The notes beneath the pieces were generated by a model, which was not told where the DNA came from, did no database searches, and was given only the letters and a program-made list of their open reading frames with translations. A program made the position numbers and the translations under genes. From Thermoleophilia bacterium (GTDB lineage: Bacteria > Actinomycetota > Thermoleophilia > Gaiellales > Gaiellaceae), in contig JAICSH010000005.1 of assembly GCA_025936995.1 (NCBI GenBank), positions 1 to 64,000 on the forward strand: DNA of 64,000 nt. Reading direction: 5' to 3'. This document shows, piece after piece, positions 6,147-60,563 of the stretch. Positions within the stretch are counted from its first letter, which is position 1, and each line of letters begins with the position of its first letter.

Positions 6147-6854
6147 CTAGAACGCGAAGATGCTCCGGCCGGCGAGCTCGACCTCGTAGATGTCGGTCGC
6201 CAGCTCCAGGTGGGCGTGCAATGCGACGGCGGCGCGGTCGGCATCGCGGGCCGCGCAGGCAGCGAGCAGCTCGTGGTCGAGCTCCGCGTGCCGGTCCTGC
6301 AGCGAGCCGCCGGGGCCCAGCAGCACGGGCCGGTACCGCTCGCAGCTGTCCCAGGCGGGACGGATCAGGCGCAGGAGCCAGCCGGAGCGCGCCGCCTCGT
6401 AGAGCGTGAAGTGGAACCCGGTGTGGGCCCGCACGGCCGCGCGCGCATCGCCGCCGCGGCGGGCGCCGTCGAGCTCGGCGAGATGCGAGCGGGCCGACTG
6501 CTCGTCCTGCGCGTCGAAGAGCTCGGCCGCGCGGCGGACGGCCATCGACTCCAGCGCGAGCCGGATCGAGAACAGCTCGCGCAGCTCCTCGATCTCCAGC
6601 GCCACGACCTTCGCGCCGTGATGCGGGACGTGCTCCGCCAGGCCGAGCGCCTCGAGCCGGCGCACCGCCTCGCGGATCGGCGAGATGCTCATCCCGAGCG
6701 AGCGGGCGAGATCCTCGAGCCGCAGCGGAGTGCCCGGCGTCAGCTCGCCGAGGATGATGGCCTCGCGCAGCCGCTCGAGCGCCGCCTCCGCCATCGTGCG
6801 GTGGCGCAACCCGTCGCCGCCCTGCGACAGTGTCGACTCCACGGTCGGCTCCAC
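6147..6854 (-). CDS. GntR family transcriptional regulator (FCD domain)
   Basis: LREAIILGELTPGTPLRLEDLARSLGMSISPIREAVRRLEALGL winged HTH with an FCD-like C-terminus. Confidence 0.9.
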   Translation of the reverse strand: MEPTVESTLSQGGDGLRHRTMAEAALERLREAIILGELTPGTPLRLEDLARSLGMSISPIREAVRRLEALGLAEHVPHHGAKVVALEIEELRELFSIRLALESMAVRRAAELFDAQDEQSARSHLAELDGARRGGDARAAVRAHTGFHFTLYEAARSGWLLRLIRPAWDSCERYRPVLLGPGGSLQDRHAELDHELLAACAARDADRAAVALHAHLELATDIYEVELAGRSIFAF

Positions 6855-6876
6855 GAAGATCGAGGGTGAACCACTC

Positions 6877-6891
6877 TTGATCAGATGTCAA
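6877..6891. promoter_or_regulatory. Candidate GntR operator TTGA-N7-TCAA in the divergent intergenic region
   Basis: TTGATCAGATGTCAA inverted repeat next to the gntR gene and upstream of the divergent operon. Confidence 0.35.
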
Positions 6892-6915
6892 ACGCATGCG
6901 ACGATCACCTCTCCG

Positions 6916-7827
6916 GTGCCGAGGGCCACACAGCAGCCACCGTTCTCGATCTCCCAGGTGAGCACGCTTGCCGCGAGCTTCGCCGACGACGTGCGCGCAT
7001 ATGCGGCCGCGGGCGTCGACGGGATCGGAGTCTGGGAGCTGAAGCTCGGCGATGGACCAGACGACGAGGAGCTCGAGCAGCTCGCAGCGAGCGGGCTCGG
7101 CTCCTCGTCTGCGGTGCCGATCGTTCCCTCGATCCTGCCGCTGCCGCTCCTGCCCGGTCCGGAGGCGCCCGAGGAGCGGATCGAGTCGCTCTGCGCCTCG
7201 GTTCACCGGCTCGCGGCGTTCGAGCCGGCGGCGATCATCTGCCTCACCGGACCCCCGGGGGAGCGCGACCCGGACGAGGCGAGGGGAACCGTCGTCGACG
7301 GCCTGCGCGCTGTCGCGCGAGAGGCCGAGAGCGCGGGAGTCCGGCTCGCCGTCGAGCCGTTCCAGCGCGAGGGGATCGAGGACTGGTCGATCATCGACAC
7401 CCTGAGCGAGGCTGCGCAGCTGATCGAGGAGGTCGGCAACGGAGCCGTCGGCATCCAGTTCGACGTCTGGCATCACTGGAACACGCCGGACGTGCTCGAG
7501 GAGATCCCGCGCCACGCGCACCTCATCGCGGGAGTCCATGTGGACGACTGGCGCGAGCCGACGCGCGGCTGGGCCGACCGCGTCCTCCCGGGCGAGGGCT
7601 CGGCAGACTTGCCCGCGCTGCTCGGCGTCTTAGACGACGTGGGGTGGGACGGGTTCTACGACCTCGAGATCTTCTCCGACAACGGCGCGTTCGGCACGTC
7701 GTATTCCGGCTCGCTCTGGGATCTCGACCCCGCCGAGCTCGTGCGCCGCGGTCGCGAGGCTTTCTACCGCTGTTGGTCGGAACGGAGGGTCACGGCGGAC
7801 GCCGTTGGCCGGAGAGGAGAGACATGA
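6916..7827 (+). CDS. Sugar phosphate isomerase/epimerase-like TIM barrel protein
   Basis: STLAASFADDVRAYAAAGVDGIGVWELKL, GIQFDVWHHWNTPD, GVHVDDWREPTRG, FYDLEIFSDNG. Start GTG 6916 or 6958. Confidence 0.8.
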   Translation: MPRATQQPPFSISQVSTLAASFADDVRAYAAAGVDGIGVWELKLGDGPDDEELEQLAASGLGSSSAVPIVPSILPLPLLPGPEAPEERIESLCASVHRLAAFEPAAIICLTGPPGERDPDEARGTVVDGLRAVAREAESAGVRLAVEPFQREGIEDWSIIDTLSEAAQLIEEVGNGAVGIQFDVWHHWNTPDVLEEIPRHAHLIAGVHVDDWREPTRGWADRVLPGEGSADLPALLGVLDDVGWDGFYDLEIFSDNGAFGTSYSGSLWDLDPAELVRRGREAFYRCWSERRVTADAVGRRGET

Positions 7828-9059
7828 GGGTAAGCAAGCGGGCGCGCTGGGCGCTCGTGATCGTTGCCGCTGCGGCACTCGTCCTCGCGGCGGCCGCGGC
7901 GGCTCGTACGAGCTCGTCGTCGGCCAAGAAGCCGATCGTCATCGGCTGGGCGTTCGACAACAAGGGCCCGATGCAGCCCTTCGACACACCTGCACTCGCG
8001 GCGGCGCAGCTCGAGGTCGCCAAGGTCAACAAGAAGGGTGTGGACGGGCGCAAGATCGTGATCAAGACCTGCAAGACCCAGGGCGACGACCCGACGACGT
8101 CGAAGACGTGTGCCGACAAGCTCATCAGCCAGGGCGCGAACGTCATCTTCACGACCTGCGACGTCGATCTCGCTTCGCCTGTCGTGCAGGAGTCGCTCAA
8201 GCACCATCTGCTGACGATCGCACCGTGCATCGGCACCGACCAGATGGGGCCGAAGCGGTTCGGCAAGGCGGGCAAGCTCGCGTACAGCTTCGGGAACGTC
8301 GCGCAGGACGAGGGCTCCGCGATGGCGCAGCTCGCCTGGAACAAGGGCTGGAAGACCGCCGACCTCGCGACGGACACCGTGATCGTCTACTTCAAGGCCG
8401 TCGTGACGGCGTTCAAGGCTCGCTTCAAGCAGCTCGGCGGCAAGATCAACTACGAGACGTCGTACCAGGATCCGGCGCTCCAGCAGGGGTCCACGAACTT
8501 CCACAACGCCGCGAGCGGCATCGAGCAGCATCCCGCGAAGGTGATCGTGACCGTGACGTCGGGCTCGTACGGCGCGCAGCTTCCGTTCATCACCGACCTG
8601 CGCACGGCCGGGGTCAACACGCCGATCCTGAACTCGTGGGCGGGTGACGGGACGTACTGGCTGCCCACGAGCGGCCCGAAGGTCACGAACTACTGGTACG
8701 TGACGTACGCGAACGCATTCGGCCACGACCCGAGTGCAGCGGTGAACAAGCTGGCCAAGACGCTCAGGGCCGCCAATCCGTTCAACGCCGCGACCGGCGG
8801 CTTCGTCACCGGGCCGGCCGCGATCGACGGGCTCGTCACCGCGATCAAGCGTGCGAACGGGTCGCTCCTCGGCTCGAAGCTCGCAGCGGTGATGGAGAAG
8901 TTCCACAAGGTGCCGACGCTCTCGGGCAATGTGAGCTTCTCGAAGAAGCTCCACTCGGTCTTCGGCCGCGAGTACCGCGTGGTCGAGATCAACAACAACA
9001 AGCCGATTGCGAAGGGCACCATCACTGCGAAGGTCGTGCCGAACAGCCCGGACGCCTAG
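7824..9059 (+). CDS. Branched-chain amino acid type ABC transporter substrate-binding protein
   Basis: Signal peptide, periplasmic-binding fold sequence, followed by LivG/F/H/M-like genes. Confidence 0.85.
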   Translation: MRVSKRARWALVIVAAAALVLAAAAAARTSSSSAKKPIVIGWAFDNKGPMQPFDTPALAAAQLEVAKVNKKGVDGRKIVIKTCKTQGDDPTTSKTCADKLISQGANVIFTTCDVDLASPVVQESLKHHLLTIAPCIGTDQMGPKRFGKAGKLAYSFGNVAQDEGSAMAQLAWNKGWKTADLATDTVIVYFKAVVTAFKARFKQLGGKINYETSYQDPALQQGSTNFHNAASGIEQHPAKVIVTVTSGSYGAQLPFITDLRTAGVNTPILNSWAGDGTYWLPTSGPKVTNYWYVTYANAFGHDPSAAVNKLAKTLRAANPFNAATGGFVTGPAAIDGLVTAIKRANGSLLGSKLAAVMEKFHKVPTLSGNVSFSKKLHSVFGREYRVVEINNNKPIAKGTITAKVVPNSPDA

Positions 9060-23964: not shown

Positions 23965-25878
23965 GTGCCCGCGCCGCCGATCGTCTGGACGCCGAGCCCC
24001 GAGCGGATCGCGTCCGCGACGATCACGCGCTACCGCGAGTGGCTCGCCGAGACGCGCGGCCTGAGACTCGAGGGCTACCACGACCTCTGGCAGTGGTCGG
24101 TCGACGAGCTCGAGGCGTTCTGGGCGTCGATCTGGGAGTTCTTCGAGGTCGAGGCGAGCGAGCCCTACGAACGGGTGCTCACCACGCACGAGATGCCCGG
24201 CGCGAAGTGGTTTCCCGGCGCGCGCCTCAGCTACGCGGAGCACGTCTTCCGCGGCCGGAACGACGACGAGGTCGCGATCCACCATGCGTCGGAGCTGCGT
24301 CCGCTCGGGGAGTGGACGTGGGGTGAGCTGCGGGGCCGTGCGGGAGCGGTCGCGGCGGCCCTGCGCGAGGCGGGCGTCGTCGCCGGAGACCGCGTCGCGG
24401 CGTACCTCCCGAACATCCCCGAGACGGTCGCCGCCTTCCTCGGCTGCGCGAGCATCGGCGCGACGTGGTCGAGCTGCGCGCCGGAGTTCGGCGTCCGCAG
24501 CGTCGTCGACCGCCTCGCCCAGATCGAGCCGAAGGTGCTTCTCGCCGTCGACGGCTACCGCTACGGCGGCCGGGACTTCGACCGGCGCGAGGCGATCTCC
24601 GCGCTGCAGCGCGAACTGCCGACCGTGGAGCGCACGTTCGTCGTCCCCTACCTCGACGGCGGCGATTGGGAGCTCCCGCCCGCCGAGCTCGAACCCTCGC
24701 AACTCCCCTTCGACCACCCGCTGTGGGTGCTCTACAGCTCGGGCACGACAGGCCTGCCGAAGCCGATCGTCCACGGCCAGGGCGGCATCCTGCTGGAGCA
24801 CCTGAAGAAGCTCCGCCTGCACGTCGACGCGCACCCCGGCGACCGGCTCTTCTGGTTCACGACGACCGGCTGGATGATGTGGAACTTCCTCGTCGGCGGC
24901 CTTCTCTCGGAGGCGTCGATCGTCCTCTTCGACGGCAACCCGGCCTACCCGGATCTCGGGACGCTCTGGGATCTTGCGGACGCGGCGGGCATCACGTGCT
25001 TCGGCACCAGCGCGGGGTTCATCACCGCCTGCCAGAAGGAGGGGGTCGAGCCGCGGTCGGGTCGCGATCTCTCACGGCTCGGCAGTGTCGGCTCGACCGG
25101 CTCGCCGCTGGCGCCCGAGGGCTTCGACTGGGTTCGCGACCGCCTCGGCGAGGACATCTGGCTTTTCTCCACGTCGGGCGGCACGGACGCCTGCACCGCC
25201 TTCGTCGGCGGGGTGCCGACGCTGCCGGTGTACCGCGGGGAGCTGCAGGCGCGCGCGCTCGGGGCGAAGGTTGAGTCGTGGAGCGAGGAGGGGCGGCCGC
25301 TGGTCGGCGAGGTCGGCGAGCTCGTCATCACGGAGCCGCTGCCGTCCATGCCTCTCCATCTCTGGGGCGACGAGGACGGGTCGCGCTACCGCGAGAGCTA
25401 CTTCTCCACCTTCCCCGGCGTCTGGCGGCACGGCGATTGGATCGAGATCACCGACCGCGGGACGGCGATCATCACCGGCCGCTCCGACGCGACGATCAAC
25501 CGCGGCGGCGTCCGCACCGGAACGAGCGAGATCTATCGCAGCGTCCTCGCGCTGGACGAGGTGGTCGACGCGCTCGTGGTCGACATCCCGCGCGGCGACG
25601 CACTGCGGATGACGCTCTTCGTCGTCTTGCGCGACGGCGCGGTGCTCGACGAGGCCCTGGAAGCGTCGATCCGCCGCCGGATCCGCGAGGACTGCTCGCC
25701 GCGGCACGTGCCGGACGAGATTCTCGTCGCCCCGGAGATCCCGCGGACCCTCTCCGGGAAGATCCTCGAGGTGCCCGTGAAACGGCTCCTGATGGGGGCT
25801 CCGGCAGACGAGGTCGCGAGTCGCGACTCGCTCGCGAACCCGGCGGCGCTCGACTGGTTCGCCCGACTTCCGCACTAA
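23965..25878 (+). CDS. Acetoacetyl-CoA synthetase (acetoacetate-CoA ligase)
   Basis: LWVLYSSGTTGLPKPIVHGQGG, MMWNFLVGGL, TSEIYRSVLALDEVVDALVV, IPRTLSGKILEVPVKRLL. Confidence 0.92.
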   Translation: MPAPPIVWTPSPERIASATITRYREWLAETRGLRLEGYHDLWQWSVDELEAFWASIWEFFEVEASEPYERVLTTHEMPGAKWFPGARLSYAEHVFRGRNDDEVAIHHASELRPLGEWTWGELRGRAGAVAAALREAGVVAGDRVAAYLPNIPETVAAFLGCASIGATWSSCAPEFGVRSVVDRLAQIEPKVLLAVDGYRYGGRDFDRREAISALQRELPTVERTFVVPYLDGGDWELPPAELEPSQLPFDHPLWVLYSSGTTGLPKPIVHGQGGILLEHLKKLRLHVDAHPGDRLFWFTTTGWMMWNFLVGGLLSEASIVLFDGNPAYPDLGTLWDLADAAGITCFGTSAGFITACQKEGVEPRSGRDLSRLGSVGSTGSPLAPEGFDWVRDRLGEDIWLFSTSGGTDACTAFVGGVPTLPVYRGELQARALGAKVESWSEEGRPLVGEVGELVITEPLPSMPLHLWGDEDGSRYRESYFSTFPGVWRHGDWIEITDRGTAIITGRSDATINRGGVRTGTSEIYRSVLALDEVVDALVVDIPRGDALRMTLFVVLRDGAVLDEALEASIRRRIREDCSPRHVPDEILVAPEIPRTLSGKILEVPVKRLLMGAPADEVASRDSLANPAALDWFARLPH

Positions 25879-48445: not shown

Positions 48446-48468
48446 GAGGCCGGTGATCGGCCGGCCTC
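48446..48468 (+). terminator. Hairpin GAGGCCGG-TGATCGG-CCGGCCTC after the subtilase stop
   Basis: 8-bp perfect stem 13 nt after the stop; overlaps the nominal GTG of the next ORF. Confidence 0.5.
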
Positions 48469-51083
48469 TCATCCGGACGCGTCGCGCGCCGGGCGAGCCC
48501 TTACGGCCGCCCGGCGCAGCCATTCGCGAGGCCCTGCAGGGGCCTCGTCGTGTCTGGGTCTTCAACGGCGTGCTCGCCCTCGTCTGCGCGGGCGTCTGGG
48601 CGTTCGTCATCCGGCGGTGGGATTCCCCGCAGCTCGTGCAAGGCCGGCATCTGGACTGGTGGATGCTCGGCATCGCGTTCTGCCTGGCCGAGGTCTTCGT
48701 CGTCCACGTGCAGTTCCGGAAGGAGGCGCACAGCCTTTCGCTCACCGAGATCGGGCTGACGCTCGGCCTGCTGCTCGGGTCGCCGGCCGGGCTTCTGATC
48801 GGGCAGCTCGCGGGCACCTTCGTCGCGCTCATCGTCAGCCGGTGGAAGAGCCAGCGCCAGCTCGTAAAGTTCGCGTTCAACCTCGCGGAGCTGCCGCTCT
48901 GCAGCGGGATCGCCATTCTCATCTTCCGATCGCTCACCGATCGCGGCGATCCGCTCCCGCACGTCTGGCTGCTCGCGCTCCTCGCCGCCGCCGTCGCCCA
49001 TACGACCGGCGTCGTCTTCGTCTCGGCCGTGATCGCCATCGCGGACGAGCGGTTCAACTGGGCGCAGATGTCCCGCACGCTCGTCACCTCGCTCCTCGGC
49101 GCTGTCGCGACGGCGTGCCTCGGGCTGGCGGCCGCCGAGCTCCTCGCGGCGCGACCGCTGGCGGTCGTCCTCCTCGCCGTCCCGGTCGTGGCCTGCGTCA
49201 CCGCGTTCCGCGGCTACATGAAGCAGCGCGAGCAGCGTGAGCACGTGGAGTTCCTCTACGAGTCGATGCGCGCCACCCAGGGCGCGCCGGAGTTCGGTCT
49301 GGCGGTCGGCCAGCTTCTCGTCGCCGCCCGCCGTCTGCTCCGGGCTGAATACGCCGAGATCCTGCTGCTCCCGGCGGCGGAGAACGAAGGGCCGCTACGG
49401 AGCGTAAGCGGCGCGGAGGGCGAGCTGCTCATGCATCCGGAGGAGAGCTTCTCTCCCCGGGACGCAGCAGCGTTCGCCCGGGTCTCGGACGCCGGCAAGG
49501 CGATGCTGCTCGCGGGACGCCGGGGCGCGAACCAGCTCGACGCATTCCTCAAGGCGCGTGGGCTGGAGGACGCGATCGTCGGGCCGCTCCGCGGCGAGAA
49601 CCGGACCTTCGGGCTCCTCGTCGTCGGCGAGCGCTCGGGAGACGTGAGCACCTTCGGAGAGGTCGACCTCGACCTGTTCGACACGTTCTCGGGACACGCG
49701 AGCATCCTGCTCGAGAACGGGCGGCTCGAGCATTCGCTGGCGCAGGTGACGCAGCTGAAGGAGCAGCTCCGCCATCAGGCGTACCACGACGCGCTCACCG
49801 GGCTCGCGAACCGCGTCAACCTCCTCGAAGCGATCAAGCACGAGCTCGAGCACGGCGCCGGCTCGACGGCGGTCCTCTACCTCGACCTCGACCGCTTCAA
49901 GACCGTCAACGACACGTGGGGCCACAGCGCGGGCGACGAGCTGCTCACCGAGTTCGCGCGGCGCCTCTCCGACGCGATCCGCGTCCAGGACCTCGCCGCG
50001 CGTCTCGGCGGCGACGAGTTCGCCGTCCTCGTTCGGGATGCGGACGCCGAGGCGGCGGTGGCCGCTACCCGGCGGATGCTCGACGCGCTCGACGGGACGT
50101 ACACGCTCGTGGGTGGAGACGTCTCCTGCCACGTGAGCGTCGGCATCGCCGTCGGCACCAACGGCGCGACGAGTGCCGAGGACCTGCTGCGCAACGCCGA
50201 CATCGCGATGTACAGCGTCAAGCGCTCGGACCGCCCGTACACGCTGTACGAGGCGGAGCTGCACGAGAAGCTTCGCGCGCAGCGGCAGCTCGGCCTCGAT
50301 CTTGAGGCGGCGCTCGAGCGGCGCGAGATCGCCGTCCACTACCAGCCGGTCGTGCGGCTCGCGGACGGAGCGATCGAGGGCTTCGAGGTGCTCGCCCGTT
50401 GGCCGCACCCGACGCGCGGCCTCCTCACTGCAGCCGACTTCCTGCCGACGGCGGAAGAGACGGGACTGACGGTCGAGCTGGGCCGCCACGTCCTGCACCA
50501 GGCCCTCCAGGCGGCGCGCCGCTGGCCGGCGCACGTGAGCCTCTGGCTCAACCTCTCGCCGGCGGAGCTCGCGAACGAGCGGCTCGTCGACACGCTCGCC
50601 GAGGCGCTCAAGGGCTACGTCGTCGAGCCGAGCCGGATCGTGATCGAAGTGACCGAGTCGGGCGTCATCCAGGGCAGCGACGCCGCGCTCGTGGCGATGC
50701 GCCGGTTGCGCGATCTCGGCGTCGGGCTGACGATCGACGACTTCGGGACCGGGTACTCGTCGCTGAGCCGTCTTGCGGAGTTCCCGATCGAGTCGCTCAA
50801 GATTCCGAAGCCTTTCGTCGACCGGCTCGTCGGCGAGGACGCAGACGAGGCGTTCGTCGACGCGATCCTGCGGCTGGGCGACTCGCTCGGCCTCTCGGCG
50901 GTGGCGGAGGGGATCGAGCATCCGGCACAGGCGGAGCGCCTGAGGCAGCTCGGCTGCCGCCTCGGCCAGGGCTACTTCTTCGGCCGCCCCGCCCCGGCGG
51001 AGGAAGCGGAGCGGCTCCTGCGCGAGCAGTCGGCCACCCGCTCGCCGCAGCTGTCGCTGGTACCCGCTTCGCGGCTCGCCTGA
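48453..51083 (+). CDS. Membrane GAF-GGDEF-EAL protein (putative bifunctional diguanylate cyclase/phosphodiesterase)
   Basis: LAARLGGDEFAVLVRDADA; EGFEVLARWPHP, IEVTESGVIQ, DDFGTGYSSLSRL, EGIEHPAQAERLRQLGCRLGQGYFFGRP. The start codon is uncertain. Confidence 0.9.
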   Translation: MIGRPLIRTRRAPGEPLRPPGAAIREALQGPRRVWVFNGVLALVCAGVWAFVIRRWDSPQLVQGRHLDWWMLGIAFCLAEVFVVHVQFRKEAHSLSLTEIGLTLGLLLGSPAGLLIGQLAGTFVALIVSRWKSQRQLVKFAFNLAELPLCSGIAILIFRSLTDRGDPLPHVWLLALLAAAVAHTTGVVFVSAVIAIADERFNWAQMSRTLVTSLLGAVATACLGLAAAELLAARPLAVVLLAVPVVACVTAFRGYMKQREQREHVEFLYESMRATQGAPEFGLAVGQLLVAARRLLRAEYAEILLLPAAENEGPLRSVSGAEGELLMHPEESFSPRDAAAFARVSDAGKAMLLAGRRGANQLDAFLKARGLEDAIVGPLRGENRTFGLLVVGERSGDVSTFGEVDLDLFDTFSGHASILLENGRLEHSLAQVTQLKEQLRHQAYHDALTGLANRVNLLEAIKHELEHGAGSTAVLYLDLDRFKTVNDTWGHSAGDELLTEFARRLSDAIRVQDLAARLGGDEFAVLVRDADAEAAVAATRRMLDALDGTYTLVGGDVSCHVSVGIAVGTNGATSAEDLLRNADIAMYSVKRSDRPYTLYEAELHEKLRAQRQLGLDLEAALERREIAVHYQPVVRLADGAIEGFEVLARWPHPTRGLLTAADFLPTAEETGLTVELGRHVLHQALQAARRWPAHVSLWLNLSPAELANERLVDTLAEALKGYVVEPSRIVIEVTESGVIQGSDAALVAMRRLRDLGVGLTIDDFGTGYSSLSRLAEFPIESLKIPKPFVDRLVGEDADEAFVDAILRLGDSLGLSAVAEGIEHPAQAERLRQLGCRLGQGYFFGRPAPAEEAERLLREQSATRSPQLSLVPASRLA

Positions 51084-59233: not shown

Positions 59234-60190
59234 TCAGAACGAAAGGACGCAACCGCCGTTGTTGCTGCTGAAGGCGTTGCTCCAGAGCGACTGGACGGGG
59301 AAGCTCGCGCCGCTCATCGTGACGCTGGCCGATGCTCCCTGGCCGGAGGTGATCCAGGCGCACTTGTCGCCGTTCTCCTCACCGTTCCGGTCGAGCCAGC
59401 CCCCGTTCGGGAACTGGTCGGTGATCGTCTCCGCCATCTCGTGACCCTCGACGATCGTCATCCCGGCGTTCGGACCGAGGCCGTTGAAGTTGGCCCCGCA
59501 CGAGGCTCCCGCGTCGGTGATGTAGGGGAGGTTCGTGTAGGCGATGTTGCCGAACGAGGACGAGGTCGAGCTATGCCACGCGCAGTACTGCGTCCCGAAC
59601 CCGGACGCGTTGTTGTTGTGCGCGGTCGCGATCACGTACTGCACCGTGGCGTTGACGGTGGAGCTCGTGTTGCCGAAGTGGCTCGCCGCGTTGACGGCCT
59701 CCGCCGCCAGCTGCGACTGGGTCGGGTGTGCCGGGGCGGCCACGCCGCTGTCCGTGAAGATGCCGCCGTAGATCCCGCTCGGGTTCCCGGCGAACTGGCT
59801 TCCGGACGGGCAGGTGATCGTGCCAGCTGCCACGCCCTGGCAGTACTGCGTGACGCTGTTCAGCCACGAGCTTCCGCCGACATGGCCGAGGAAGCTCTGG
59901 AGCGTCGCGGACTCACCTGACGGGTCGCTGCTCCACTGCGATCCCCACAGGACGAGGTAGACCGTGGGGGCGGTCTCGACGCCGATCCCGCCGACGCCGC
60001 CCTGGTACGTCAGGTTGTTCGTCCGCCTGGGCCGTACCGGCTTGCTGGGCTTGCCGTTGAACGTCCGCATCACCGACAGCTTCGCTTGAGCCTGCGAGCT
60101 TCCCGGCGCGGCCGATGCGGCCGCTGTGGTCAAAGCCCCGGCTGTGGCGAGGACCCCCACGAGGGCGCCGCAGAGATAGCGCCTTCTCAT
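59234..60190 (-). CDS. Secreted putative metallopeptidase-like protein with HExxE motif
   Basis: Signal peptide; GMTIVEGHEMAETITDQFPNGGWLDRNGEENGDKCAW. Confidence 0.65.
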   Translation of the reverse strand: MRRRYLCGALVGVLATAGALTTAAASAAPGSSQAQAKLSVMRTFNGKPSKPVRPRRTNNLTYQGGVGGIGVETAPTVYLVLWGSQWSSDPSGESATLQSFLGHVGGSSWLNSVTQYCQGVAAGTITCPSGSQFAGNPSGIYGGIFTDSGVAAPAHPTQSQLAAEAVNAASHFGNTSSTVNATVQYVIATAHNNNASGFGTQYCAWHSSTSSSFGNIAYTNLPYITDAGASCGANFNGLGPNAGMTIVEGHEMAETITDQFPNGGWLDRNGEENGDKCAWITSGQGASASVTMSGASFPVQSLWSNAFSSNNGGCVLSF

Positions 60191-60261
60191 CACGCCTCCT
60201 TGTAGGACGACAACAAGAGGCCGGAGGCTAGCCGCTCGGGCGGCTGCGCACAAGTTCCCCG

Positions 60262-60486
60262 CTAGACGGTCTGCTGCCTGCGGAGGAGCTTGCGGAGCGC
60301 GTCGATGCGCTCGTGCACCCGCTGCCGCTCGTCCGAGAGCTCCCGTTCGCGGTCGCGCGAGGTCCCGGTCCCGAAGCCGAAGTCGATCTGGTCGTGCAGG
60401 CGGCTGCGCTCAGCAGACAGGCGGGCCTCCTCGGCTTCCAGGCGGGCGAGCTCGTCGTGGGCGTCCTCGAGAGTCGTTTCCTCCAC
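60262..60486 (-). CDS. 74-aa coiled-coil protein with two RsiG-like c-di-GMP-binding signatures
   Basis: E-ARL-S-AE-R-SRL-H-DQI-D and E-REL-S-DE-R-QRV-H-ERI-D on two predicted helices joined by a GFGTGTS linker. Confidence 0.75.
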   Translation of the reverse strand: MEETTLEDAHDELARLEAEEARLSAERSRLHDQIDFGFGTGTSRDRERELSDERQRVHERIDALRKLLRRQQTV

Positions 60487-60563
60487 GAAGCCCGTTATCG
60501 GCAGAACGCACGCGGATGTGAATACCCGTCGCGGTCCGAAGTATCCCCCTCCGGCGCGGCTAG

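Follow-up and report, generated by a model that had tools for sequence, protein, structure and literature searches.

What would a bacterium do with a 74-residue protein that holds little besides two copies of a motif for binding cyclic di-GMP (c-di-GMP)? A small gene, here called mini-RsiG, raises this question. It lies in a 64,000-nucleotide stretch of DNA (the window) from a soil bacterium of the Thermoleophilia; the assembly it belongs to (as contig C22) totals 1.85 Mb and is 70% complete. From sequence comparisons, we conclude that mini-RsiG is a cut-down paralogue of RsiG, the anti-sigma factor of WhiG, and that it is additional to the canonical RsiG of the same genome. We estimate a probability of about 0.7 that it is an RsiG-derived, c-di-GMP-binding hairpin under the control of WhiG, whatever its output.

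The gene occupies positions 60262-60486 on the minus strand, with a GTG start codon at 60486 and a stop codon at 60264-60262. The initial annotation had called the same open reading frame (ORF) of 74 amino acids without giving its strand, and its description of two identically spaced motif copies within a minimal helical hairpin agrees with our results. The motif E-X3-S-X2-R-X3-H-X3-D is present twice: as E20/S24/R27/H31/D35 in helix 1 (motif 1, EARLSAERSRLHDQID, residues 20-35, 60382-60429, minus strand) and as E47/S51/R54/H58/D62 in helix 2 (motif 2, ERELSDERQRVHERID, residues 47-62, 60301-60348, minus strand), with 11 residues between the two. AlphaFold2, run on the monomer without ligand, predicted a two-helix hairpin (helices 2-38 and 41-73; mean predicted local distance difference test score, 86.9) joined by a tight turn at residues 39-40 (60367-60372, minus strand). 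The G+C content by codon position was 0.80/0.42/0.92. Among six genes from the same genus, nonsynonymous divergence (dN, 0.19-0.41) was lower than synonymous divergence (dS, 0.41-1.36), and changes fell mainly at third positions. The codon-position composition and the excess of dS over dN, together with a second paralogue in the same genome (below), show that mini-RsiG is a real gene under purifying selection.

Mini-RsiG belongs to a family of hairpins with a narrow distribution. A search with a three-sequence alignment in a named genome collection returned three close homologues, in metagenome-assembled genomes labelled Thermoleophilia bacterium. In a profile search of one taxonomic family of the Thermoleophilia (103 genomes), 15 genomes had hairpins, and we counted 21 such genes. 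A second paralogue, 60% identical and with both motifs, is present on contig C13 of the window's own genome. Outside this taxonomic family, no hairpins were found in 399 genomes of the class or 397 of the phylum, where there were only partial matches of the single-motif type, and no relatives were found in phage records or viral contigs. Hairpins come in a short and a long type, in which the distance between the two motif glutamates is 26-27 and 36-41 residues, respectively; in either type, the invariant alignment columns include those of the motif.

Conservation of the motif was assessed in 20 aligned proteins (40 helices), whose identity to the window protein goes down to 33%. S and R were invariant, H or Q was present in 40/40 helices, E in 39/40 and D in 32/40. 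Orthologs without conservation of these positions would have spoken against the initial annotation; checked on these proteins, this objection did not apply. Judging from this conservation over 20 homologues, the twin motifs are more than a chance occurrence, and c-di-GMP binding by mini-RsiG is predicted on the same grounds. The fourth motif position was H in all 20 second helices, and in the first helix it was H in 15 proteins and Q in five; Q and H therefore do not covary between the two motifs.

Kinship to RsiG, proposed by the initial annotation, was supported by two types of profile comparison. When a profile of ten family members was compared with all entries of the PDB, the top four matches were RsiG structures (7lq4, 7lq2 and 7lq3 from Rubrobacter, and 6pfj, a twin-motif RsiG deposited as AmfC), with E values from 7.5e-4 to 3e-3. 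Profile-profile comparison of the hairpins with canonical RsiG gave P = 2.7e-7 for the short type and 7.1e-10 for the long type. In addition, each of the ten sequences in the first alignment matched Pfam RsiG at E values up to 1, the best being 2.5e-13. A search of NCBIfam gave no relevant match. The initial annotation had correctly noted H in both motifs and had treated it as a departure from the Q of RsiG. This second part did not hold, since H is common at that position of RsiG and an H-bearing RsiG from Conexibacter binds c-di-GMP, according to a 2021 report (PMC8325347).

The genome of the window also encodes the ordinary form of the switch. The suggested search for a WhiG/FliA-type sigma factor found one match above the curated cut-off of 189.6 bits, a WhiG at C24:482-1156 (285.6 bits), and its position on another contig is consistent with the remark that no such factor lies in the window. 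A canonical single-motif RsiG is encoded on contig C56 (77.6 bits against PF22802; cut-off, 27), and there are ten GGDEF matches. Because the genome has all of these, the hairpin is an extra paralogue. Canonical RsiG was near universal in the 103 family genomes and was detected in 14 of the 15 that have hairpins; the remaining hairpin genome is 68% complete.

Mini-RsiG shares features with both known forms of RsiG. The single-motif form of the Rubrobacteria and Thermoleophilia (RsiG-Rr and RsiG-Cw; PDB 7LQ2-7LQ4; PF22802) is of similar size and occurs in the same bacterial class. However, it carries one motif per chain and forms a homodimer, whereas mini-RsiG has two motifs in one chain. In the twin-motif RsiG of Streptomyces (PDB 6PFJ and 6PFV), as in mini-RsiG, two motifs lie on two antiparallel helices of a single chain. 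The predicted hairpin, with its motifs facing each other as estimated from residue numbers rather than superposed coordinates, has the antiparallel two-helix coiled-coil arrangement of RsiG. Its symmetry centre, judged from the predicted turn, lies about 6 residues past the motif E; for the Rubrobacter dimer, we estimated about 5 from the published coiled-coil limits (45-83) and D74.

What mini-RsiG lacks are the parts that hold WhiG. The Rubrobacter protein binds WhiG through N- and C-terminal extensions, and the Streptomyces protein through a long, ordered inter-helix loop and its C-terminal region. In contrast, mini-RsiG has neither the extensions nor the long loop, and consists of little beyond the two motifs and the 11 residues between them. 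Canonical RsiG of this taxonomic family has conserved N- and C-terminal flanks that are missing from the hairpins. At positions +5, +9 and +12 from the motif, which we infer to face WhiG, the canonical proteins have Y/F (one L), L/I/V and G (10/10), and the hairpins have mostly small or charged residues (A/D/E, R/E/A and D/E/A/R, respectively). The initial annotation had suggested a c-di-GMP sensor or an anti-sigma factor. Conservation among homologues points to binding of c-di-GMP; an anti-sigma role is doubtful because the protein has no WhiG-holding segments and the genome encodes a normal RsiG and a WhiG at other loci.

A promoter-like sequence that the initial annotation had missed would connect mini-RsiG to WhiG. 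Eight nucleotides before the GTG codon there is an 8/8 match, GCCGATAA (60495-60502, minus strand), to the FliA/WhiG -10 consensus given in PMC8325347, and a -35-like element, TCAC (60518-60521, minus strand), precedes it with a spacer of 15 nucleotides. A transcript from this promoter would be close to leaderless. Among the 16 family genes whose start could be defined, 11 had a -10 box matching at least 7/8 positions 7-9 nucleotides before it, and eight of the 16 combined this box with a TCA -35-like triplet at a spacer of 15 or 16. The other ATG/GTG positions of the fetched loci, about 13,250 in number, showed this combination nine times (Fisher P about 1e-20, a value to be read knowing that the genes are related, that the -35 rule was set after inspection and that three background loci were fetched because they carry the pattern). 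Upstream of canonical rsiG, the box was not seen next to the start in any of the 16 regions inspected, most of which had a GAAAGG-like ribosome-binding site. Conserved coding sequence was rejected as the explanation of the upstream GCCGAT, because its frame relative to the start differs among members (spacing of 7 or 8 nucleotides). Based on this pattern, mini-RsiG appears to be transcribed by WhiG.

The same promoter type was found before genes for other functions. In the window's genome, GCCGATA-N7-9-RTG occurred nine times, including once at each of the two mini-RsiG genes, and the promoter type precedes the gene for an HD_5 (HD-GYP-type) protein; in relatives, it precedes genes for a GGDEF protein, a prepilin, FlhB and small LuxR-type regulators. 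TAAA-N16-GCCGATA also stands before other genes. Ten relatives had about 10-25 occurrences of the GCCGATA pattern per genome and about 3-15 of the reversed pattern. Many single matches are therefore due to chance. The WhiG regulon of Rubrobacter radiotolerans (PMC8325347) similarly has FliA/WhiG-type -10 elements and includes pilus (pil) genes and genes for c-di-GMP turnover (diguanylate cyclases and phosphodiesterases). It differs in that the -35 is TAAA, rather than the TCA frequent in the hairpin family, and in that its targets, as far as named in the text consulted, include no RsiG-like hairpin gene. At one locus (L074; G000:C56, 78344-78382, minus strand), TAAA-N16-GCCGATAG, a WhiG-type promoter, lies 8 nucleotides before the start of a gene for a sigma factor, itself a few kb away from rsiG; the arrangement is the same in another genome (G245) and similar in two genomes of genus g2.

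We propose that mini-RsiG is an RsiG paralogue of which only the antiparallel coiled coil that binds c-di-GMP is left. Because two copies of the motif lie on one short hairpin, a single chain should present a symmetric site for two molecules of c-di-GMP, as single-motif RsiG does by dimerizing. When c-di-GMP falls, RsiG would free WhiG, which would then transcribe mini-RsiG together with other targets, for example enzymes of c-di-GMP turnover and, in relatives, genes for pilin or flagella. Having bound c-di-GMP, the hairpin would feed back on the RsiG-WhiG switch, most likely by drawing c-di-GMP from RsiG and so prolonging the activity of WhiG. This complete account, including feedback by titration and its direction, is tentative, and we think it more likely than not that one of its parts is wrong.

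Several observations weigh against this proposal. The window protein alone scored 16.3 bits against PF22802, below the gathering cut-off of 27, and several family members lack the motif D in one helix, though never in both. A Foldseek search of the PDB with mini-RsiG matched only generic coiled coils, all with E above 0.001; the shape is so simple that this search is uninformative. A good -10 at 7-9 nucleotides is missing from five of the 16 family genes, the -35 of mini-RsiG is TCA-like rather than TAAA, and TAAA-N15-GCCGATAA, with up to one mismatch, had no match in the window's genome. Finally, RsiG alone binds c-di-GMP only at 6.5-25 μM (PMC8325347), which weakens the case for titration unless mini-RsiG binds more tightly or with a partner.

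Three other explanations would fit parts of these data. Mini-RsiG could be an ordinary short coiled coil whose likeness to RsiG does not entail c-di-GMP binding. Coiled coils yield many weak matches, and we attributed the other weak Pfam matches (HflX linker, ZapB and SPAM) to such noise; the fold search was similarly non-specific. However, S, R and H/Q were kept in 40/40 helices at identities down to 33%, and RsiG was the top PDB family of the profile search, so we regard this explanation as quite improbable. Alternatively, mini-RsiG could be a c-di-GMP-dependent anti-sigma factor that is induced by WhiG and re-captures it as c-di-GMP rises, with the c-di-GMP dimer as the main contact surface, resulting in negative feedback. 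The WhiG-type promoter is consistent with this, and the genome's WhiG carries K-YVA-GR, which fits the c-di-GMP-contacting K-X3-G-R. Yet an ordinary RsiG is already present and the parts that grip WhiG are gone, making this role unlikely, if less so than an ordinary coiled coil.

A stronger competitor is that mini-RsiG, loaded with c-di-GMP and with a remodelled coiled-coil surface, is an adaptor for some protein besides WhiG, such as a pilus or envelope protein or another sigma factor. The charged residues at conserved non-motif positions of RsiG point in this direction, as do the mreB-like (in three genomes of the same genus), prepilin and pilC-like neighbours in relatives and an in-frame hairpin on an acetoacetyl-CoA synthetase ORF in one genome. 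On the other hand, no neighbour was conserved across genera in the loci read, and the window copy lies between a major facilitator superfamily gene and a gene for a secreted protein. We consider an adaptor role nearly as likely as titration.

If WhiG does drive mini-RsiG, then an output of the switch would bind the switch's own input signal, a new piece of feedback in RsiG-WhiG, which PMC8325347 presented as the sole sigma-anti-sigma complex known to be a target of c-di-GMP. A 74-residue twin-motif hairpin would also rank as a very small c-di-GMP receptor, and would naturally parallel the duplication proposed as the origin of Streptomyces RsiG, in a class for which the same report gave only the single-motif form. 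More speculatively, internal duplication of RsiG and loss of its sigma-binding parts may have given a portable miniature hairpin that could serve non-WhiG partners, act as a WhiG-induced feedback element and, in one lineage, become a domain of acetoacetyl-CoA synthetase; we hold this broader scenario to be possible and clearly short of an even chance. A full-text search, with most subscription journals outside its coverage, found no paper on RsiG-like hairpins.

The acetoacetyl-CoA synthetase with a hairpin in frame at its C-terminus is encoded at G003:C7 (L058, ORF 6554-8803, minus strand). Residues 661-702 matched Pfam RsiG at 33.8 bits, above the gathering cut-off, and there is no ATG, GTG or TTG between the end of the synthetase and motif 1. 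If it is not an assembly error, this ORF would be a domain fusion. The window's own acetoacetyl-CoA synthetase (23965-25878, plus strand) lacks the extension.

Twin-motif proteins of other kinds were also seen. For the Thermoleophilia, the 2021 report describes the single-motif form alone. In three genomes of genus g2 (G003, G135 and G085; loci L076, L078 and L080), canonical RsiG is in the twin-motif form, in ORFs of 174-206 amino acids. In the first of these genomes, a twin-motif RsiG-like gene (L077; G003:C1, about 7150-7556, plus strand; Pfam RsiG, 40.6 bits) lies in a flagellar cluster, between fliM-like and fliN-like genes.

There were several minor observations on the neighbours and ends of the hairpins. 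The GGDEF-EAL protein that had been noted about 9 kb away is present (48453-51083, plus strand, with a GGDEF match); we saw no supporting sign of a link to mini-RsiG and set it aside. In the three same-genus genomes mentioned above (L054, L055 and L057; G203, G193 and G317), mini-RsiG follows the mreB-like gene downstream and in the same orientation, and the intervening gene differs or is missing; a prepilin gene and pilC-like genes are among the neighbours in relatives. Four long-type hairpins (L059, L061, L064 and L065) have similar proline-rich tail ends (for example, PSPKESLLDR and APVAPKETLLERP), possibly a short binding motif. Downstream of mini-RsiG, the secreted-protein gene (59234-60253, minus strand) had no Pfam match at E 0.01, and an HEMAE stretch in its product may bind metal.
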